From the NCBI RefSeq assembly GCF_000422545.1, contig NZ_KE383873.1:62001-126000 (forward strand): a stretch of 64,000 nucleotides of DNA, read 5' to 3'. How positions within the stretch are numbered: position 1 is the first letter of the stretch; each line of letters starts with the position of its first letter. This stretch comes from Desulfocurvibacter africanus subsp. africanus DSM 2603 (lineage in GTDB: Bacteria > Desulfobacterota > Desulfovibrionia > Desulfovibrionales > Desulfovibrionaceae). A program made the position numbers and the translations under genes. The notes under the pieces are model-generated. The model had not been told where the DNA came from, did not search any database, and saw nothing but the letters and a program-made list of their open reading frames with translations. This document shows positions 43,794-50,034 of the stretch, in pieces.

Positions 43794-45647
43794 TTAACTG
43801 TTATCGCCAAGCATTTCAGATTGCGCTGGAGCTTTGCTTTGCGCCGGAGTCTCGCTAATGAGCGTCATGGACGAGATGGGCGAGAAGGTGGTCATCTGGC
43901 GCAGGGAAAGTTCCAGGCGCTCGCCGCTCTTGAGTTCAAATGAATCTCCCCAGGGCAGGGGCGTCTGACCGGCCAGAGCCAGCAGCTTGTCCCGTGCTCC
44001 ATTGCTCCAGGCCTCGGCCAAGGTGTAGCGGCCGGACGCCAGCAGCGTCGCTTCGCCTGCCCGCCAGTCAAGGACGATCCGTCGGCCGTCCTCGGCCTGA
44101 AGCACCAAGGCCTTGAGCCTGCGCGGCACGATGCGAATGAAGAATTCGTCCCGAGACTGGCTGGGAGTCTCTCGCGCCACGCGGCAGAGCCACTCATCGG
44201 GCTTGTCCGTGGGCACCAGCCAATGCTGTAGGAACATGCTTGGATCGAGGATGATCTCGGGCCCGCTGTCCTGACCGTCATTGAGCGTGCGGTTGGCTAT
44301 GAAGCCCTTGAGGTTGAGCACTTCATCCTTGCCGCCGTGAATTCCCTCAAGCACGAGTTGGTCGCCGACGACAGCCTCAAGCGTTCTCCCCGCAGGTATA
44401 ATGCGCAGGCTCCCGTTGTGCCAACAGACGAACCAGGGCGTTTGGCCGGGCTCCGCCTTTGGCCATGTGCCGGCCCACTCCACGGGGATGCTGGTCAGGG
44501 TAGTCCCGTCTGCGCGGACCTCCAGGGATCTAAAAGGTATTAAGGGCAGGCGCGGAGTTTCCAGGAGGTTGATCTCTGGCCGATCCGAGGCGAAGACGCC
44601 AACGGCGCCGGCCGCGCCGGCTTTGACTTGCGCGTTCGTGAGTCCAAGGTCCTCGGCCGTGAGGGCAAGCGGCTCGTAAGACAATAGTTTCAGAGGTGCC
44701 GGTCTGGTTGATCCCACCGACTGCGCTCCAACGCGTAAGACCGGCGCTACGATACGCGCTTGCTCGATGAGCGTATCCTGATCAGCTACCTGCAGGTGCA
44801 GTCCGAACTGCTCCAGGAGGAGCACTGTGGCGCGCAGTTGCTGGCTGACCTTCCATTCGACCTGCACGATATCCTTGCTCACCTCAATGGCGAAGGCAGG
44901 AATGGACCGGTTTTTCAGCGCATAGCAGGTCAATGATTTGAGCTGCTCGGCATGGGGCGAGTCGGGCCTGAAGGTATCCGTGGAAAACAGCCGAAAGCGG
45001 AAGTCGGCCGTGGTGATGGGCTGGTTGAGCCTGTCGAGTACGGAGTTGACGTAATTGGCCAGAAAAATCCTGTTCTCGAAAACAGGCGTGTCGATGATGA
45101 TCGACTGTCCGTAGCGCCGGGGATTGCGCAGATTGTCCACCCATACCGGGTTATAGAAACCGGAGCCCTCGTGCAGGTGGATGAAGGCGTCGGCCTGAGC
45201 CAGGAAGAAGCGGATGGCCCGGGCCAGATGGTCTTCATAGAATTCGTTGTAATCGCGATCGAAGCGGCGGTTGAGGTCAACGTTGATCTGCCGCTGGCGC
45301 TTGTGGATGGACGGCACGTTGGCCCTGGGGATGATGATGAGCCGCCCATTGTCCAGCTTGGCGTGGGTGAGCTGCTGGGCAGTGAGAAAGCCCGCGATCT
45401 CGTCGCCCTGGATGCCGCCTTGGACCATGACCGTGGGGCCGGGCTTCGCGCCTTCCAGGATATACACGCGCAGAGGGTACTGCGTGCCTTGAAAGATGGT
45501 GAACTCGGCTCCGGTTGCGGGCCGCGCAACGACCAGCAGGGCCGCCAGGACCAGTAGTGCACTGGTGACCTGCCGATACACTGCGCGTGGCCAGCGGACG
45601 TACCTTGTCAGCCATTGGACCAGGCGGACGGAGCAAGGGAAAGGCAT
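43794..45647 (-). CDS. M99-family (Csd4/Pgp1-like) murein carboxypeptidase
   Basis: A 617-residue exported protein. A signal peptide (hydrophobic residues about 29-41, ending TGA) is followed by the M14/M99 carboxypeptidase fold. The zinc site reads GGIQGDE, with Gln80 and Glu83, and the His is in FIHLHEGSGFY (near residue 157-159). Gln in place of the usual first His is the hallmark of Helicobacter Csd4. NVDLNRRFDRD carries the substrate Arg, and AFAIEVSKDI the catalytic Glu. The enzyme would trim peptidoglycan tripeptides to dipeptides in the periplasm. The start at 45647 is ATG; a GTG 81 bases upstream overlaps the preceding gene. It is last in a three-gene run. Confidence 0.85.
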   Translation of the reverse strand: MPFPCSVRLVQWLTRYVRWPRAVYRQVTSALLVLAALLVVARPATGAEFTIFQGTQYPLRVYILEGAKPGPTVMVQGGIQGDEIAGFLTAQQLTHAKLDNGRLIIIPRANVPSIHKRQRQINVDLNRRFDRDYNEFYEDHLARAIRFFLAQADAFIHLHEGSGFYNPVWVDNLRNPRRYGQSIIIDTPVFENRIFLANYVNSVLDRLNQPITTADFRFRLFSTDTFRPDSPHAEQLKSLTCYALKNRSIPAFAIEVSKDIVQVEWKVSQQLRATVLLLEQFGLHLQVADQDTLIEQARIVAPVLRVGAQSVGSTRPAPLKLLSYEPLALTAEDLGLTNAQVKAGAAGAVGVFASDRPEINLLETPRLPLIPFRSLEVRADGTTLTSIPVEWAGTWPKAEPGQTPWFVCWHNGSLRIIPAGRTLEAVVGDQLVLEGIHGGKDEVLNLKGFIANRTLNDGQDSGPEIILDPSMFLQHWLVPTDKPDEWLCRVARETPSQSRDEFFIRIVPRRLKALVLQAEDGRRIVLDWRAGEATLLASGRYTLAEAWSNGARDKLLALAGQTPLPWGDSFELKSGERLELSLRQMTTFSPISSMTLISETPAQSKAPAQSEMLGDNS

Positions 45648-45693
45648 AACCCCCGCCTGTTCCTGGGCAAGCGACCTAGTTACGCTTGCCTGG

Positions 45694-46401
45694 CTAGGAA
45701 AGGATCTGGCTGAGCGGGAAAGTTTCACTGAATACCATTGTTCCGTTATCGCTACGACGGATATTGAGGCGGATGCCGAACAGGTCGTTGCCCTTGATGC
45801 CGGAGGGTATGCCGAAGACCGTTCGCACGCGTTTGAAACGCTGGATGCTGAAGTTCAGGTCCTCGGTAGTGATCGTGGGCTGCACGAGTTGCCCCGTGCG
45901 TGTGATGATGGCGAGATGCACTACGCCCGAGAGCGTCGAGTCCGCCACGAGGTTGTTCAGGTCGAAGCGTACCTGAAGCTTGTCGCCCTGTAGTCGGGCC
46001 TGGAAGTTATCCACGTTCGCCTGCTGCAGGTCCACATGGGTGAAGATTTCGTTGAGGTCGATATTGCTTGGGATCTGAGGCGACTCGGTCTCCACCGAAA
46101 CGGAGCCGATAAGAGCGTGCAGTTCATCGGGGTCGTTGGATTGGAGGATCTGCTCGACATTTTCAAGCCGCTCCAATTTTACCCTTGCCTCGGTGAGCGT
46201 AATCTGCAGGTTACGGTTGTCCACGCGCAGCTTATGGCTTTCCAGCCAGAAGCGATAGCCCGTGAAGAACCCAGCCAAAGCCAGAGTCACAAGGAAGATT
46301 TCAGCGTAAATGAAGGCCTTGAGCCATATTTTGCTGAGCCTGAAACGCCGGACTTGGCTATCGTCGCGCATGAGCAGCAGACTGTACTTGGAGCTTGCCA
46401 T
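45694..46401 (-). CDS. Coiled-coil membrane protein between Csd6- and Csd4-like genes
   Basis: A 235-residue protein that I do not recognise. A transmembrane segment lies at about residues 27-48 (FIYAEIFLVTLALAGFFTGYRFW), a coiled coil at about 52-85 (LRVDNRNLQITLTEARVKLERLENVEQIL), and a strand-rich C-terminal domain thereafter (GDKLQVRFDLNNLVADSTLSGVVHLAIIT). The ATG lies inside the preceding stop codon (TGATG), so translation is coupled to the L,D-peptidase gene. The position suggests it anchors or scaffolds the two murein enzymes, an inference only. Confidence 0.75.
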   Translation of the reverse strand: MASSKYSLLLMRDDSQVRRFRLSKIWLKAFIYAEIFLVTLALAGFFTGYRFWLESHKLRVDNRNLQITLTEARVKLERLENVEQILQSNDPDELHALIGSVSVETESPQIPSNIDLNEIFTHVDLQQANVDNFQARLQGDKLQVRFDLNNLVADSTLSGVVHLAIITRTGQLVQPTITTEDLNFSIQRFKRVRTVFGIPSGIKGNDLFGIRLNIRRSDNGTMVFSETFPLSQILS

Positions 46402-48047
46402 CAGTTGCCCTTTCTCCAGTATTCGGCGGAAATGAGCCATTGCTCGCCGTGTGGTTCGAGGATGAGGGTCTTGGTTCCGGTATCCGTATATCCGTTGGAG
46501 CTTTCGTAAACTTGGCGGAAAGCAACTTCGATGCCTTTGGGATGCAGGGCGATGCGTCGGTTGGACAGCTCAACGCGCGTGGGGGGATTGTCGGCCCATA
46601 AGGTTTGTTTGTGTTCCATGACGGCCTTGAGGCCGTTGCGGCCCTGCTGATGCGCACCGGGCAGGTACAGCGCCGCGTAGCCATCCAGATCCGCTCGTTC
46701 CCAGGCTGCCTGCCACAAGGACAAAGCTTCGGATACAGATTTGGTGACGTGGGCCATATAGCGCTGTTCCAGGTCAGACGGAGGCTGATCGTACTCCTGA
46801 CCAACGATCCGCCAGACGCCCTTTGGGTCCTTTTGCCAATACAGGCGCTTGCGCACTGCGGATGTGATGCCTGGCGCGCGGTAAACCTGGTCGAAGGCGG
46901 TCACCCAGTAGTCCGGGCCCGGAAGGGCCGTGATGTCGTCGAGCACGACCTGGATCCAGGGCATGCGTGCGAACAGGCGTTCCTTGTTGGCTTTGAAGGC
47001 CTCGAACGATTCCCCGCCCGAGCGGCTGTATTTCCGCGGGGCGTAGAAGGAGAAAAATGTATCGCTCTTGTTCTGCCAAGCCTTGGCCCACTCGCGCACC
47101 ATGGCGATAATGGCGTTGGCCTCGCCCGAGTGGGACTGCCCGTCCGGCGGCCAGGCTATCTTCTGGGCGATGATCACAGGCGTGCCACGGCCAAGGGTGC
47201 TGCTTAGACCATGCAGGTCGGGAGTGTTTAGGGCCACGCAGCCCCGCGTCTCCATGGGCACGATCTTGCCGCCGCGGCCGTGAATCCAGATGCCGTACCC
47301 TGTCTTGCCCTCGATGCGATCCACGGGATTGGGGAAGTTCAAGGTGTAAGCGATGTCTCCATAGAGCTGATAATCCAGGCCGGTGGTAAGCTTGCGTTGG
47401 ATGAAGTAGACTCCCTCGGGCGTGCGCAGATCACCCTCGCGGTACTTGTCTCCAGCCACTTGGCCCGTGGCGCAAGGCAGTTCGACGGCCTTGCGCAGGG
47501 GGCTGCGCCGTTCCATGAGAAAAAAGGTCTGGCTGGCCTTGTCGATGGCCAGGAAGCGGACGGGGGAATTCTCATGTTCGGGAATGGTAAGATGCCAAGT
47601 GTCGCCGATCGTCTGCGCAGGTGGGGCCATGCTCATGGCTGCCTTGGGATCGCCTTCGGGCACGAGGGCCGCTTCCGGCGTGGGTACCGGCGCTGTGCCT
47701 GCTTCGATGCCGGCCTGAGCGCCGGCATCGAAGCCTGCCTCGGGTTCGCTGACAGTCGCTGGTTCCGAAGGCATGGAATTTTGAGCCGTGGCCGAATCGT
47801 TCAAGGGCAAGGCATCGGCAATTACAGGTCCTTGCTCGTCAACCGAGTTCCGAGCGTCCGCAGCCGATGGATAGGCCGTGACTGTGACCAGCAGGAACAA
47901 GATCCAGAATCCGACTTGCAGGTGAACTGGGGCTCGCGCCTCGCGAGCGCGGGACGGACGTGTGCCTCCAGGCAAGCAGGGAGTCGCTGGATAACGTGAG
48001 CCATGCCTGGGGCATGGAGCCAAACTGGGCTTGGGGCAACGAGTCAA
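46401..48047 (-). CDS. YkuD-domain L,D-carboxypeptidase/transpeptidase with NTF2-like domains (Csd6/Pgp2-like)
   Basis: A 548-residue exported protein. The membrane segment is at about residues 45-62. A Pro/Ala/Glu-rich linker leads to the YkuD catalytic domain (about 160-300), with GYGIWIHGRGGKIVPMETRGCVAL holding His256 and catalytic Cys270 (HGxx...TRGC). Two NTF2/SnoaL-like regions follow (about 310-420 and 430-548). This layout is that of Helicobacter Csd6, an L,D-carboxypeptidase that trims tetrapeptides to tripeptides, with one more NTF2-like part. No ATG is available; TTG at 48047 has AGGTGG at a good distance and is preferred, with TTG at 48053 as alternative. Confidence 0.83.
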   Translation of the reverse strand: MTRCPKPSLAPCPRHGSRYPATPCLPGGTRPSRAREARAPVHLQVGFWILFLLVTVTAYPSAADARNSVDEQGPVIADALPLNDSATAQNSMPSEPATVSEPEAGFDAGAQAGIEAGTAPVPTPEAALVPEGDPKAAMSMAPPAQTIGDTWHLTIPEHENSPVRFLAIDKASQTFFLMERRSPLRKAVELPCATGQVAGDKYREGDLRTPEGVYFIQRKLTTGLDYQLYGDIAYTLNFPNPVDRIEGKTGYGIWIHGRGGKIVPMETRGCVALNTPDLHGLSSTLGRGTPVIIAQKIAWPPDGQSHSGEANAIIAMVREWAKAWQNKSDTFFSFYAPRKYSRSGGESFEAFKANKERLFARMPWIQVVLDDITALPGPDYWVTAFDQVYRAPGITSAVRKRLYWQKDPKGVWRIVGQEYDQPPSDLEQRYMAHVTKSVSEALSLWQAAWERADLDGYAALYLPGAHQQGRNGLKAVMEHKQTLWADNPPTRVELSNRRIALHPKGIEVAFRQVYESSNGYTDTGTKTLILEPHGEQWLISAEYWRKGN

Positions 48048-48166
48048 GGCCAAACCACCTACAGTGTTTATTCGTCAAGCTCGACACGGGCATGACCAAC
48101 TGTGCCCATGGGACCGCTACGGGTTGTGGCCATCCCGGGGTAATAGGGGACCGGCGTATCCGGGCC

Positions 48167-48727
48167 CTAACGGGCTAATTCAAGCAATTCCCTTCGGGTG
48201 AAGATGGGCTTGAGCGTATGGCCCGCGGCGGCCAAGTTGTCACGGCCGCCTTCCTCTCTGTCCAGGACACAAAGCACCGTGGCGACCGTAAGGCCGGCGT
48301 CGCGCACGCGCTCAATTGCCTTAATCAATGTTCCGCCGGTCGTAACCACGTCTTCCAACATGGCCACCCGGTCGCCAGGCTGGAAGTTCTTGAGGCCTTC
48401 CAGATACTGGTTGGTGCCGTGCCCCTTGGAAGCCTTGCGCACGATAAAACCGGGCAAAGGCCTACCTTCCAGATAGGAGACGACGGTCACGGCCGAGATC
48501 AGGGGATCCGCGCCGAGCGTCATTCCGCCGACACCATGTATGGATGGATCATCGACCATATCCAGAAAAAGTTTACCGATGAGCCAGGAACCTTCCGGAT
48601 GCAGAGCTGTTTGTTTGCAGTCGAAGTAGTAATCACTCTTGCGCCCGGAAGTCAAAACAACCTCACCGGCTACATAGGACTTCTCCATAAGGAGTCGAGC
48701 CAAGCGTTTCTTTAGCGACAGGTCCAT
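48167..48727 (-). CDS. pyrE: Orotate phosphoribosyltransferase
   Basis: A 186-residue OPRTase, forming OMP from orotate and PRPP in pyrimidine synthesis. The PRPP loop is AMLEDVVTTGGTLIKAI (near residue 122), and the catalytic loop is FIVRKASKGHGTNQYLEG (near residue 95). LTSGRKSDYYFDCKQTALHPEG is the family N-terminal motif. Its ATG overlaps the stop of purB (TAATG), so translation is coupled. Confidence 0.95.
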   Translation of the reverse strand: MDLSLKKRLARLLMEKSYVAGEVVLTSGRKSDYYFDCKQTALHPEGSWLIGKLFLDMVDDPSIHGVGGMTLGADPLISAVTVVSYLEGRPLPGFIVRKASKGHGTNQYLEGLKNFQPGDRVAMLEDVVTTGGTLIKAIERVRDAGLTVATVLCVLDREEGGRDNLAAAGHTLKPIFTRRELLELAR

Positions 48728-50034
48728 TATTCAAGCACCCTCGTATATACTACGTCCTCGTGACGCAGGTAGAAGCCCATATCGAAGACCTCGTCCAGTC
48801 TGTCTGCGCCCAGTCTGCCGACAATAGCAGAGTCGGCGCGCACTGCTTCGGGAAAGTCGCGGCGTTCTTCCCAACAGAGCATGGCTATCCGCTGGACCAT
48901 CTCATAGGCTTCTTGACGCTGGAGCCCAGACTCCACCAGAGCCGTGAGCACGCGTTGCGAAAAAAAGAGTTGTTGAGAGCTTTTCAAATTCCGTTCCATG
49001 TTCTCGGGTATGATGCGCAGGTTGCGCAGCAGCCCTGCAAGACGGGATAGCAGATAATGCGCCAGGATGGTCGAATCGGGCATTATGACCCGCTCCACGG
49101 AAGAGTGGGAAATGTCCCGCTCGTGCCACAGGGCCTGGTTCTCCATGGCGGCCAAGGCGTTGCCGCGCAACAATCGGGCCAGACCGCTCATGTTCTCGGC
49201 CGAGATGGGGTTCTTCTTGTGCGGCATGGCCGAGGAGCCTTTTTGGCCCTTGGCGAAGCCTTCTTCCGCTTCGCGCACCTCGGTGCGCTGCAAGTGGCGC
49301 AGCTCCACGCACAGACGTTCAACTCCACCGGCCATGAGGGCCAAGGTGGTGAAGAAGTTTGCGTATCGGTCGCGCTGCACGATTTGTGTGGAGACCGGAT
49401 CCACCCTTAAACCGAGCAGCTCAAGGGCCGTTTCCTCGACGTCGGGCGTCAGCGCCGTGTAGGTGCCCACCGCGCCAGAAAGCTTGCCGACGCGCACGTC
49501 ATCCATGGCTTGTTGCAGGCGCGTCCGGTGGCGGGCGAACTCGGCGTAGAAACCGAGCATCTTGAGGCCGAAGCTGGTGGGCTCCGCATGCACGCCGTGG
49601 GTGCGTCCCATGCACAGCCGGCCCTTATGCTCCAAGGCCAGCTTGCGCAGAACGTCCAGCAGGACGTCCAGGGCGTTGCCTACCAAGCTGCCGGCTCTGG
49701 CAAGCAGCAGGCTGTTGGCCGTATCCACGATGTCCGAGGACGTACAGCCTAAATGGATATAGCGCGAGACCGGACCCACGCGTTCTTCCACGGCCGTCAA
49801 AAAGGCTATGACGTCGTGGCGTGTGCGCTCCTCGATTTCCAGCACCCGGGCGCTGAAGGATTCATCGATGGGAAAGACGGTCTTAGACTCGATCTCGGCC
49901 ATGGCCTCCTTCGGAATGACGCCGGCTTTGTGCCATGCTCGGCAAACCGCCAGCTCCACCTCCATCCAGGCGCGAAATTTGTTTTCCTGGGTCCAAAGGG
50001 CACCCATCTCAGGGCGTGTGTAGCGTTCGATCAT
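48727..50034 (-). CDS. purB: Adenylosuccinate lyase
   Basis: A 435-residue fumarase/aspartase-superfamily enzyme, acting twice in purine synthesis (SAICAR and adenylosuccinate cleavage). [13 protein letters not shown] (near residue 95) and the signature [16 protein letters not shown] (near 264) with the catalytic Ser are present, as is [12 protein letters not shown] (near 144). Length and order match PurB. It is downstream of fmdB by 66 nt. Confidence 0.95.

Follow-up and report, generated by a model that had tools for sequence, protein, structure and literature searches.

How a curved cell restricts peptidoglycan-trimming enzymes of the periplasm to one of its sides is an open problem, and the authors of a study on the Bdellovibrio enzyme Bd1075 state that they are aware of no mechanistic basis for the targeting of one lateral wall (PMC8938487). 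The same question is raised by a locus of Desulfocurvibacter africanus subsp. africanus DSM 2603, a member of the order Desulfovibrionales, which was analyzed within a window of 64,000 nucleotides (assembly GCF_000422545.1, contig NZ_KE383873.1, positions 62,001 to 126,000). Three leftward open reading frames (ORFs), which span positions 43794-48053 of the window and lie where a preliminary description of this DNA had placed them, encode two putative enzymes for successive trimming steps, a Csd6-type LD-carboxypeptidase (LDT) and a Csd4-type DL-carboxypeptidase (M99), together with a middle protein (MID) whose arm appears to be related to the bactofilin-docking arm of the peptidase LmdC, an arrangement that suggests how trimming could be aimed. 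What is new here is MID, a family without Pfam or NCBIfam annotation that is found across the order and beyond. Genomes, loci, genera and families are given below, where needed, by our own codes (G, L, g and f).

The middle protein joins an LmdC-type arm to a predicted Ig-like domain

Searches with MID against Pfam, NCBIfam and the sequences of the PDB gave nothing reliable, which agrees with the preliminary description, where this 235-residue protein with one membrane segment and a coiled coil belonged to no recognised family. Its predicted model (mean predicted local distance difference test score, pLDDT, 83) has one helix at residues 24-88, in which the membrane segment and the coiled coil can be seen, and a beta-sandwich from about residue 122, and an alignment of 30 sequences (the window and 29 relatives) has an invariant K...MRD...V...R pattern ahead of the membrane helix. 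The beta-sandwich matches part of the beta-glucuronidase 6d8g (Z 11.3, root mean square deviation (rmsd) 2.2, 103 residues aligned), and a second structural comparison of the model returned mostly beta-sandwich parts of glycosidases; we call this domain Ig-like on the assumption that such is the fold of the 6d8g part. Foldseek matches of the model, mostly to the tails of Kir channels at a TM-score of about 0.3, were taken as generic beta-sandwich matches. DUF6776 was considered as an assignment for MID and dropped, with a weak match in two of the 30 members (best E value 1.4e-3) and none in the window MID or the other MIDs scanned.

The front half of MID is laid out like that of LmdC from Hyphomonas neptunium and Rhodospirillum rubrum, with a cytoplasmic tail, a membrane helix and a coiled coil, whereas an Ig-like domain stands where LmdC has its M23 peptidase. 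No M23 domain was found in MID by Pfam scan or in the model, and because this C-terminal domain is absent MID was not filed as an LmdC. The window genome itself encodes an M23 peptidase in which all three of these front parts are present (L038), and MID was compared with LmdC via the LmdC-like M23 peptidases of this clade, with a profile made of 24 copies of the relatives, L038 included, from which three divergent rows (L064, L065, L066) were left out. In the hhalign comparison over the front 100 residues of LmdC the real score was 48.7, while 150 column shuffles reached a mean of 17.2 (standard deviation 4.2, maximum 35.3) and 150 versions in which the tail columns alone were shuffled a mean of 34.4 (maximum 41.7). 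The tail alone scored 20.2, and none of 300 shuffles came as high (mean 8.2, maximum 16.2). Likewise, when hidden Markov models (HMMs) were run at E <= 1e-3 over 4628 ORFs, a set in which some genes are repeated in overlapping loci, the LmdC arm found 16 MID ORFs, 24 M23 peptidases and no others, and the MID arm found 103 MIDs, two M23 peptidases and no others; in addition, five M23 peptidases of another family reached 19.5-27.5 bits with the MID-arm profile. As judged by these profiles, MID and the LmdC-type M23 peptidases have related front halves, from the tail through the membrane helix to the coiled coil, and MID, from its sequences and predicted model, is an unnamed family in which an LmdC-type arm is joined to an Ig-like domain.

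The relationship is of interest with regard to what the LmdC tail does. Bactofilin is bound in vitro by the tail of Hyphomonas LmdC (about 15 micromolar), and enrichment at the inner curve is abolished in Rhodospirillum when the LmdC tail is changed (PMC10945521). The tested H. neptunium peptide was recognised by the local LmdC profiles, with only 2 of 5000 shuffles scoring as high against the tail and 51 of 5000 against the arm. A comparable division of labour is described for Csd5 of H. pylori, a non-enzymatic membrane protein that works as we propose for MID, its cytoplasmic N-terminus binding the bactofilin CcmA and its other end reaching the wall, although Csd5, unlike MID, binds peptidoglycan through an SH3 domain (PMC9507126); the likeness drawn here concerns the manner of working. 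It is likely that MID docks to bactofilin.

MID occurs with bactofilin

Bactofilin was surveyed in 79 genomes of the order, of which 13 lack one above the cut-off (G054, with a single match below it, was counted as lacking). MID was found in 58 of the 66 genomes with bactofilin and in none of the 13 without it (Fisher 7.7e-10). Without 12 low-quality genomes the figures were 53 of 56 and 0 of 11, and counted by genus they were 45 of 51 and 0 of 5 (p 1.2e-4), the mixed genus g7 being set aside, in which G046 has both bactofilin and MID and G006 neither. M99 was present in 47 of 66 genomes with bactofilin and in 0 of 13 without; in the 29 genomes examined for LmdC, which was called if a match extended into the first 20 query residues, the counts were 22 of 24 and 0 of 5. 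In contrast, LDT was present in 62 of 66 genomes with bactofilin and also in 5 of the 13 without, and is thus not tied to bactofilin as MID and M99 are; a control gene of patchy distribution, taken from the window, occurred in 13 of the 66 genomes with bactofilin and in 5 of the 13 without (p 0.16). MID is therefore tied to bactofilin by occurrence, which together with the LmdC-like arm and the Ig-like end refines the preliminary description of the middle protein. The Fisher values ignore kinship and the 13 bactofilin-less genomes amount to about four losses, as we count them by their genus and family codes, which places the true strength of the tie below these values.

The window genome has one ordinary bactofilin gene, directly behind an FtsW/RodA-family gene, and one odd bactofilin match in a 585-residue frame. 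The ordinary gene (L002:111-3002, contig G000:C4) has the FtsW/RodA-family gene on one side and, on the other, two genes for ATP synthase B subunits. Seven relatives have a second MID-like gene (eight loci, L189-L195 and L199), in frames of 311-352 residues and one of 1842 residues, and no bactofilin was seen near these in the stretch read; L196, taken at first for such a paralogue, proved to be an LmdC-type M23 peptidase.

The flanking genes encode Csd6- and Csd4-type enzymes by family

The preliminary description of the first gene as a Csd6-like YkuD L,D-peptidase with two NTF2-like parts is borne out. LDT matches the Pfam families YkuD (E 2.9e-15) and, in two stretches, the NTF2-like Cds6_C (PF24125, E 4.6e-27), and its closest solved structures by sequence are 7o21 (E 1.5e-30), 4xzz (2.6e-28) and 6xj6 (4.9e-26), which are Bd1075 of Bdellovibrio, Csd6 of Helicobacter and Pgp2 of Campylobacter, respectively (PMC8938487). 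It is the sole YkuD match in the window genome. In an alignment of 33 rows (the window and 32 of 39 fetched sequences) the active-site His and Cys are kept in all rows and the Gly in 31, and the residue at Cys+2 is Ala in 31; the catalytic Cys of the preliminary description is thus present, at position 272 of the longest ORF instead of 270. The seven sequences outside the alignment comprise six long ones, which retain the His and Cys motifs, and the shortened L110, which has neither and has lost the catalytic domain. Since Cys+2 is Ala in Csd6 and Pgp2 and Arg in most transpeptidases (PMC8938487), the Ala of LDT would favour carboxypeptidase over transpeptidase activity. By family, LDT is almost certainly an LD-carboxypeptidase of the Csd6/Pgp2/Bd1075 type.

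With these three enzymes LDT shares the YkuD His-Gly-Cys and an NTF2-like C-terminal domain, and with Csd6 and Pgp2 the Ala at Cys+2. It differs from them in having two NTF2 domains (36 of 39 ORFs) or three (L107, L108 and L113, frames of 766-807 residues), compared with one (PMC8938487), and in that its gene sits with the gene for the next-step enzyme and with MID. Bd1075 reaches the convex cell face via its NTF2 domain, for which Trp303 and Tyr274 are important; its gene is monocistronic, and Trp303 is described as absent from other such enzymes (PMC8938487). Among the 33 LDT rows the equivalent of Trp303 (Trp546, in the second-last column of the LDT/Bd1075 alignment) is Trp throughout, and that of Tyr274 (Tyr516) is Tyr in 30 and Phe in 3.

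The third gene had been described as an M99 carboxypeptidase resembling Csd4, and this assignment holds as well. Its product matches Peptidase_M99 (E 2.6e-30, 106 bits against a curated cut-off of 27) and, among solved structures by sequence, Csd4 (4q6m, E 2.5e-23). A loss of the metal-site Gln, Glu or His was looked for in the homologues, and all three are invariant in 24 of 24 aligned rows (the window and all 23 fetched operon-type M99s), as are the residues that correspond to Arg86, Arg94 and the base Glu222 of Csd4, which were placed by eye on the M99/Csd4 alignment and whose roles are taken from PMC4220969. The zinc-site residues are present as described, although Gln80 and Glu83 become Gln107 and Glu110, with HLH at 184-186, if the GTG at 45728 is counted as residue 1. 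In the model (572 residues, mean pLDDT 87) the best match is Csd4 (Foldseek E 2.1e-24; Z 28.2-29.5 over 305-365 residues, rmsd 9.5-16.3). Like Csd4 and Pgp1, M99 combines the QxxE...H site with beta domains behind the catalytic domain, but it is longer than the 414-437 residues of the Csd4 chains, and although its rear half is beta-rich, a three-domain layout of catalytic, beta-barrel and Ig-like domains as in Csd4 is, at this rmsd, no more than possible; since the Csd4 alignment covers at most model residues 13-462, the rear beta part is probably extra or rearranged. By family, M99 is a DL-carboxypeptidase of the Csd4/Pgp1 type with near certainty. Pgp1 needs Pgp2 to make its substrate (PMC10151779), and this dependence, together with the kept active sites, suggests that LDT and M99 should act in turn.

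Conservation of the operon

The genes had been regarded as a coupled operon, in agreement with the ATG of MID at 46401, which shares TGATG with the LDT stop codon, and with the gene order of the relatives. In 78 relatives, one genome per species, best matches were taken at E <= 0.01 for MID and E <= 0.001 for LDT and M99, and genes were called adjacent when they lay on one strand less than 1500 bases apart. LDT, MID and M99 are contiguous in 23 of these relatives and LDT and MID adjoin in 26 more, so that the two are neighbours in 49 of the 57 relatives that have MID; LDT stands alone in 7 relatives, and neither LDT nor MID was found in 11, one of which has M99. Upstream of LDT, purB was seen in 39 of 40 fetched neighbourhoods, which were chosen for having matches, the exception (L094) being an unlinked M99 copy. 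The order purB-pyrE-LDT-MID-M99 is thus widespread in the Desulfovibrionales.

A scan of named genomes with the single MID sequence gave no relative, while a scan with the MID alignment gave 31 named loci, of which 17 have the full trio, 11 have LDT-MID and no M99 in view (some of these loci end at contig ends) and 3, from Desulfonatronum or Desulfonatronaceae, have MID without LDT. When 395 genomes of the phylum were searched with the MID profile, 30 matched, 15 in the family of the window and 15 in other families. The latter comprise five loci with the trio in the same order (L216, L217, L219, L225, L228), three with LDT-MID and no M99 in a short flank (L220, L222, L223), five LmdC-type M23 peptidases (L218, L224, L226, L227, L229) and two matches, L221 and L230, at which neither LDT nor M99 was seen. 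By the sequence evidence the operon is old.

Several loci depart from the usual order. The M99 gene directly follows that of LDT, with no MID between them, in clade f3, g51 (L095:5493-8455, L112:3284-6315). By eye, a short lipoprotein-like gene replaces LDT behind pyrE and ahead of MID in a Desulfonatronum-type genome (L020:827-2193). The LDT frame of G046, which is presumably Lawsonia intracellularis, has NTF2 domains only and no YkuD motifs (L110:5103-6937), with MID kept and M99 not found there, and may be a targeting remnant without the enzyme.

A proposed mechanism and its alternatives

Within the limits of sequence evidence, the enzyme families and the gene order are established, and for enzyme activity, the membrane orientation of MID, its physical docking and its contact with the enzymes, as well as for curvature, we infer the following. 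The trio would be a targeted peptidoglycan-trimming module, in which exported LDT would take D-Ala off tetrapeptides to give tripeptides, as Csd6 and Pgp2 do, and exported M99 would take off meso-DAP to give dipeptides, as Csd4 and Pgp1 do. MID would span the inner membrane with its short cytoplasmic tail docked on a bactofilin scaffold, and its coiled coil would carry the Ig-like domain into the periplasm, where it may hold or place the enzymes or grip the wall. Trimming confined to one side of the cell would leave fewer stems for cross-linking there, and the cell would bend. A role of the trio in curvature is quite likely, and a bactofilin-docked module that bends the cell, taken as a whole, is moderately likely. 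The wider proposal, that MID founds a family of bactofilin-docking adaptors without the LmdC peptidase which recruit the flanking, successively acting carboxypeptidases, and thus a phylum-wide curvature machine and the missing link that aims trimming at one flank, is tentative and has somewhat less than an even chance of being right.

Cell shape provides a comparison. Bactofilin, MID and M99 are absent from all six genomes of genus g55, in five of which LDT is still found behind pyrE. In one of these genomes (G070) the [NiFeSe] hydrogenase differs from 4kl8, by eye, at 6 residues and the selenocysteine in 451, and we take 1cc1 and 4kl8 to be proteins of Desulfomicrobium baculatum. On this sequence match genus g55 was taken as Desulfomicrobium, whose cells are short straight or ellipsoidal rods without a Desulfovibrio-like curve (PMC8069399). 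The absence of MID and M99 from these presumed straight rods agrees with the preliminary description, but is suggestive only, since it concerns one lineage.

A number of observations weigh against the proposed module. MID lacks an adjacent LDT in 8 of 78 relatives, seven of them Desulfonatronum, a genus that we take to be curved and in which neither LDT nor M99 lies beside MID; LDT and M99 occur without MID in 3 of 78; and in the 26 relatives with LDT-MID but no adjoining M99 the latter is elsewhere in 18 and missing in 8, so that no simple rule equates the trio with a curve. In G046, MID stands beside an LDT frame without a catalytic domain. Eight bactofilin-bearing genomes have no MID, the losses of bactofilin are few, and no bactofilin was found beside MID in 129 loci scanned, the two loci that contain one having it beside LmdC-like M23 genes (G051 and G053; L197 and L198), with G053 in the MID-less clade f3, g51. 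The MID profiles do not recognise the H. neptunium peptide, which was equalled or exceeded by 3544 and by 2728 of 5000 shuffles, and because only the LmdC profiles recognise it, the link of MID to the tested peptide is indirect, via the local LmdCs. Moreover, the bactofilin-LmdC pair of R. rubrum reduces curvature (PMC10945521), which leaves the sign of any effect of MID on curvature open. Likewise, residues 1-20 of MID are modelled at pLDDT 56 and 64, residues 1-23 contain no strands, and the beta-hairpin of LmdC is not reproduced; the tail-only HMMs hardly cross, that of MID finding no M23 peptidase at E <= 10 and that of LmdC seven MIDs at E <= 10, the best at 0.72.

The last two points, together with the few losses, would also fit a convergent likeness of the two arms, each combining a basic tail with a membrane helix and a coiled coil, the bactofilin link then being a by-product of phylogeny. 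Coiled coils align easily, as is seen from the mean that remains after tail shuffling, yet the tail beat all 300 shuffles and the whole arm all 150 of either kind, at E <= 1e-3 the ORFs retrieved by either arm profile are all MIDs or M23 peptidases, and the MID-arm profile also scores the five M23 peptidases of another family; convergence is therefore very improbable. A different account accepts the enzymes and separates MID from them: both would set curvature alone, with LDT placed by its NTF2 domains as Bd1075 is, and MID, although encoded in the operon, would work apart from them as a partner of bactofilin, for instance with LmdC or the elongasome. The monocistronic, NTF2-targeted Bd1075, the matching Trp and Tyr of LDT, and the relatives in which MID lacks an adjoining LDT (8) or LDT-M99 lacks MID (3) speak for it. 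However, the adjacency of LDT and MID in most MID-bearing relatives, the recurrence of the order in other families, and the presumed Desulfomicrobium genomes, five of six of which have LDT behind pyrE and no MID, M99 or bactofilin, make it unlikely. Finally, the trio may trim the wall for another purpose, such as recycling, insertion of envelope complexes or stress, with no role in curvature. Its genes lie behind purB and pyrE, which are housekeeping genes, some lineages lack parts of it, and the open-licence literature yielded no published phenotype or such operon for this order, no paper joining Desulfovibrio, cell curvature and carboxypeptidase, and on bactofilin and Desulfovibrio only papers that are off-topic by title and abstract start. 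Against this, the characterised Csd6, Pgp2, Bd1075, Csd4 and Pgp1 all alter cell shape, and MID and M99 track bactofilin, so that a purpose unrelated to curvature seems quite improbable.

Layout of the locus

Table 1. Features of the LDT-MID-M99 locus, with positions in the 64,000-nucleotide window.
Feature	Position	Strand	Basis or remark
LDT, Csd6/Pgp2/Bd1075-type LD-carboxypeptidase by family, two NTF2-like domains	46401..48053	-	start codon uncertain, probably ~47927
YkuD catalytic domain, residues 168-295 of the 550-residue LDT ORF; His258, Gly259, Cys272, Cys+2 = Ala	47169..47552	-	Pfam and alignment
First NTF2-like (Cds6_C) domain of LDT	46803..47111	-	
Second NTF2-like domain of LDT, with the aligned equivalents of Bd1075 Tyr274 (Tyr516) and Trp303 (Trp546)	46413..46736	-	
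MID, putative membrane adaptor, 235 residues	45694..46401	-	start overlaps LDT stop
MID N-terminal tail KY..L.MRDD..VRR.R..P.W, related to LmdC tail	46321..46401	-	alignment
Membrane helix of MID, continuous with the coiled coil, model residues 24-88	46138..46332	-	predicted model
MID Ig-like beta-sandwich, model residues ~122-235	45697..46038	-	predicted model, structural match
M99, Csd4/Pgp1-type DL-carboxypeptidase by family, C-terminal beta domains	43794..45647	-	Pfam, structure matches
M99 catalytic domain, QxxE...H metal site and Csd4 Arg/Glu residues	44790..45443	-	24/24 aligned rows
pyrE-like phosphoribosyltransferase, conserved upstream neighbour	48167..48727	-	
purB adenylosuccinate lyase, conserved upstream neighbour	48727..50034	-	

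Promoter and terminator scans of the locus gave no excess over shuffles. For LDT the start candidates are 48053, 48047 and a GTG near 47927; the GTG directly precedes a signal-peptide-like stretch and is, from the sequence, the more likely start, and the matches of LDT in relatives begin mostly at residue 131-157.

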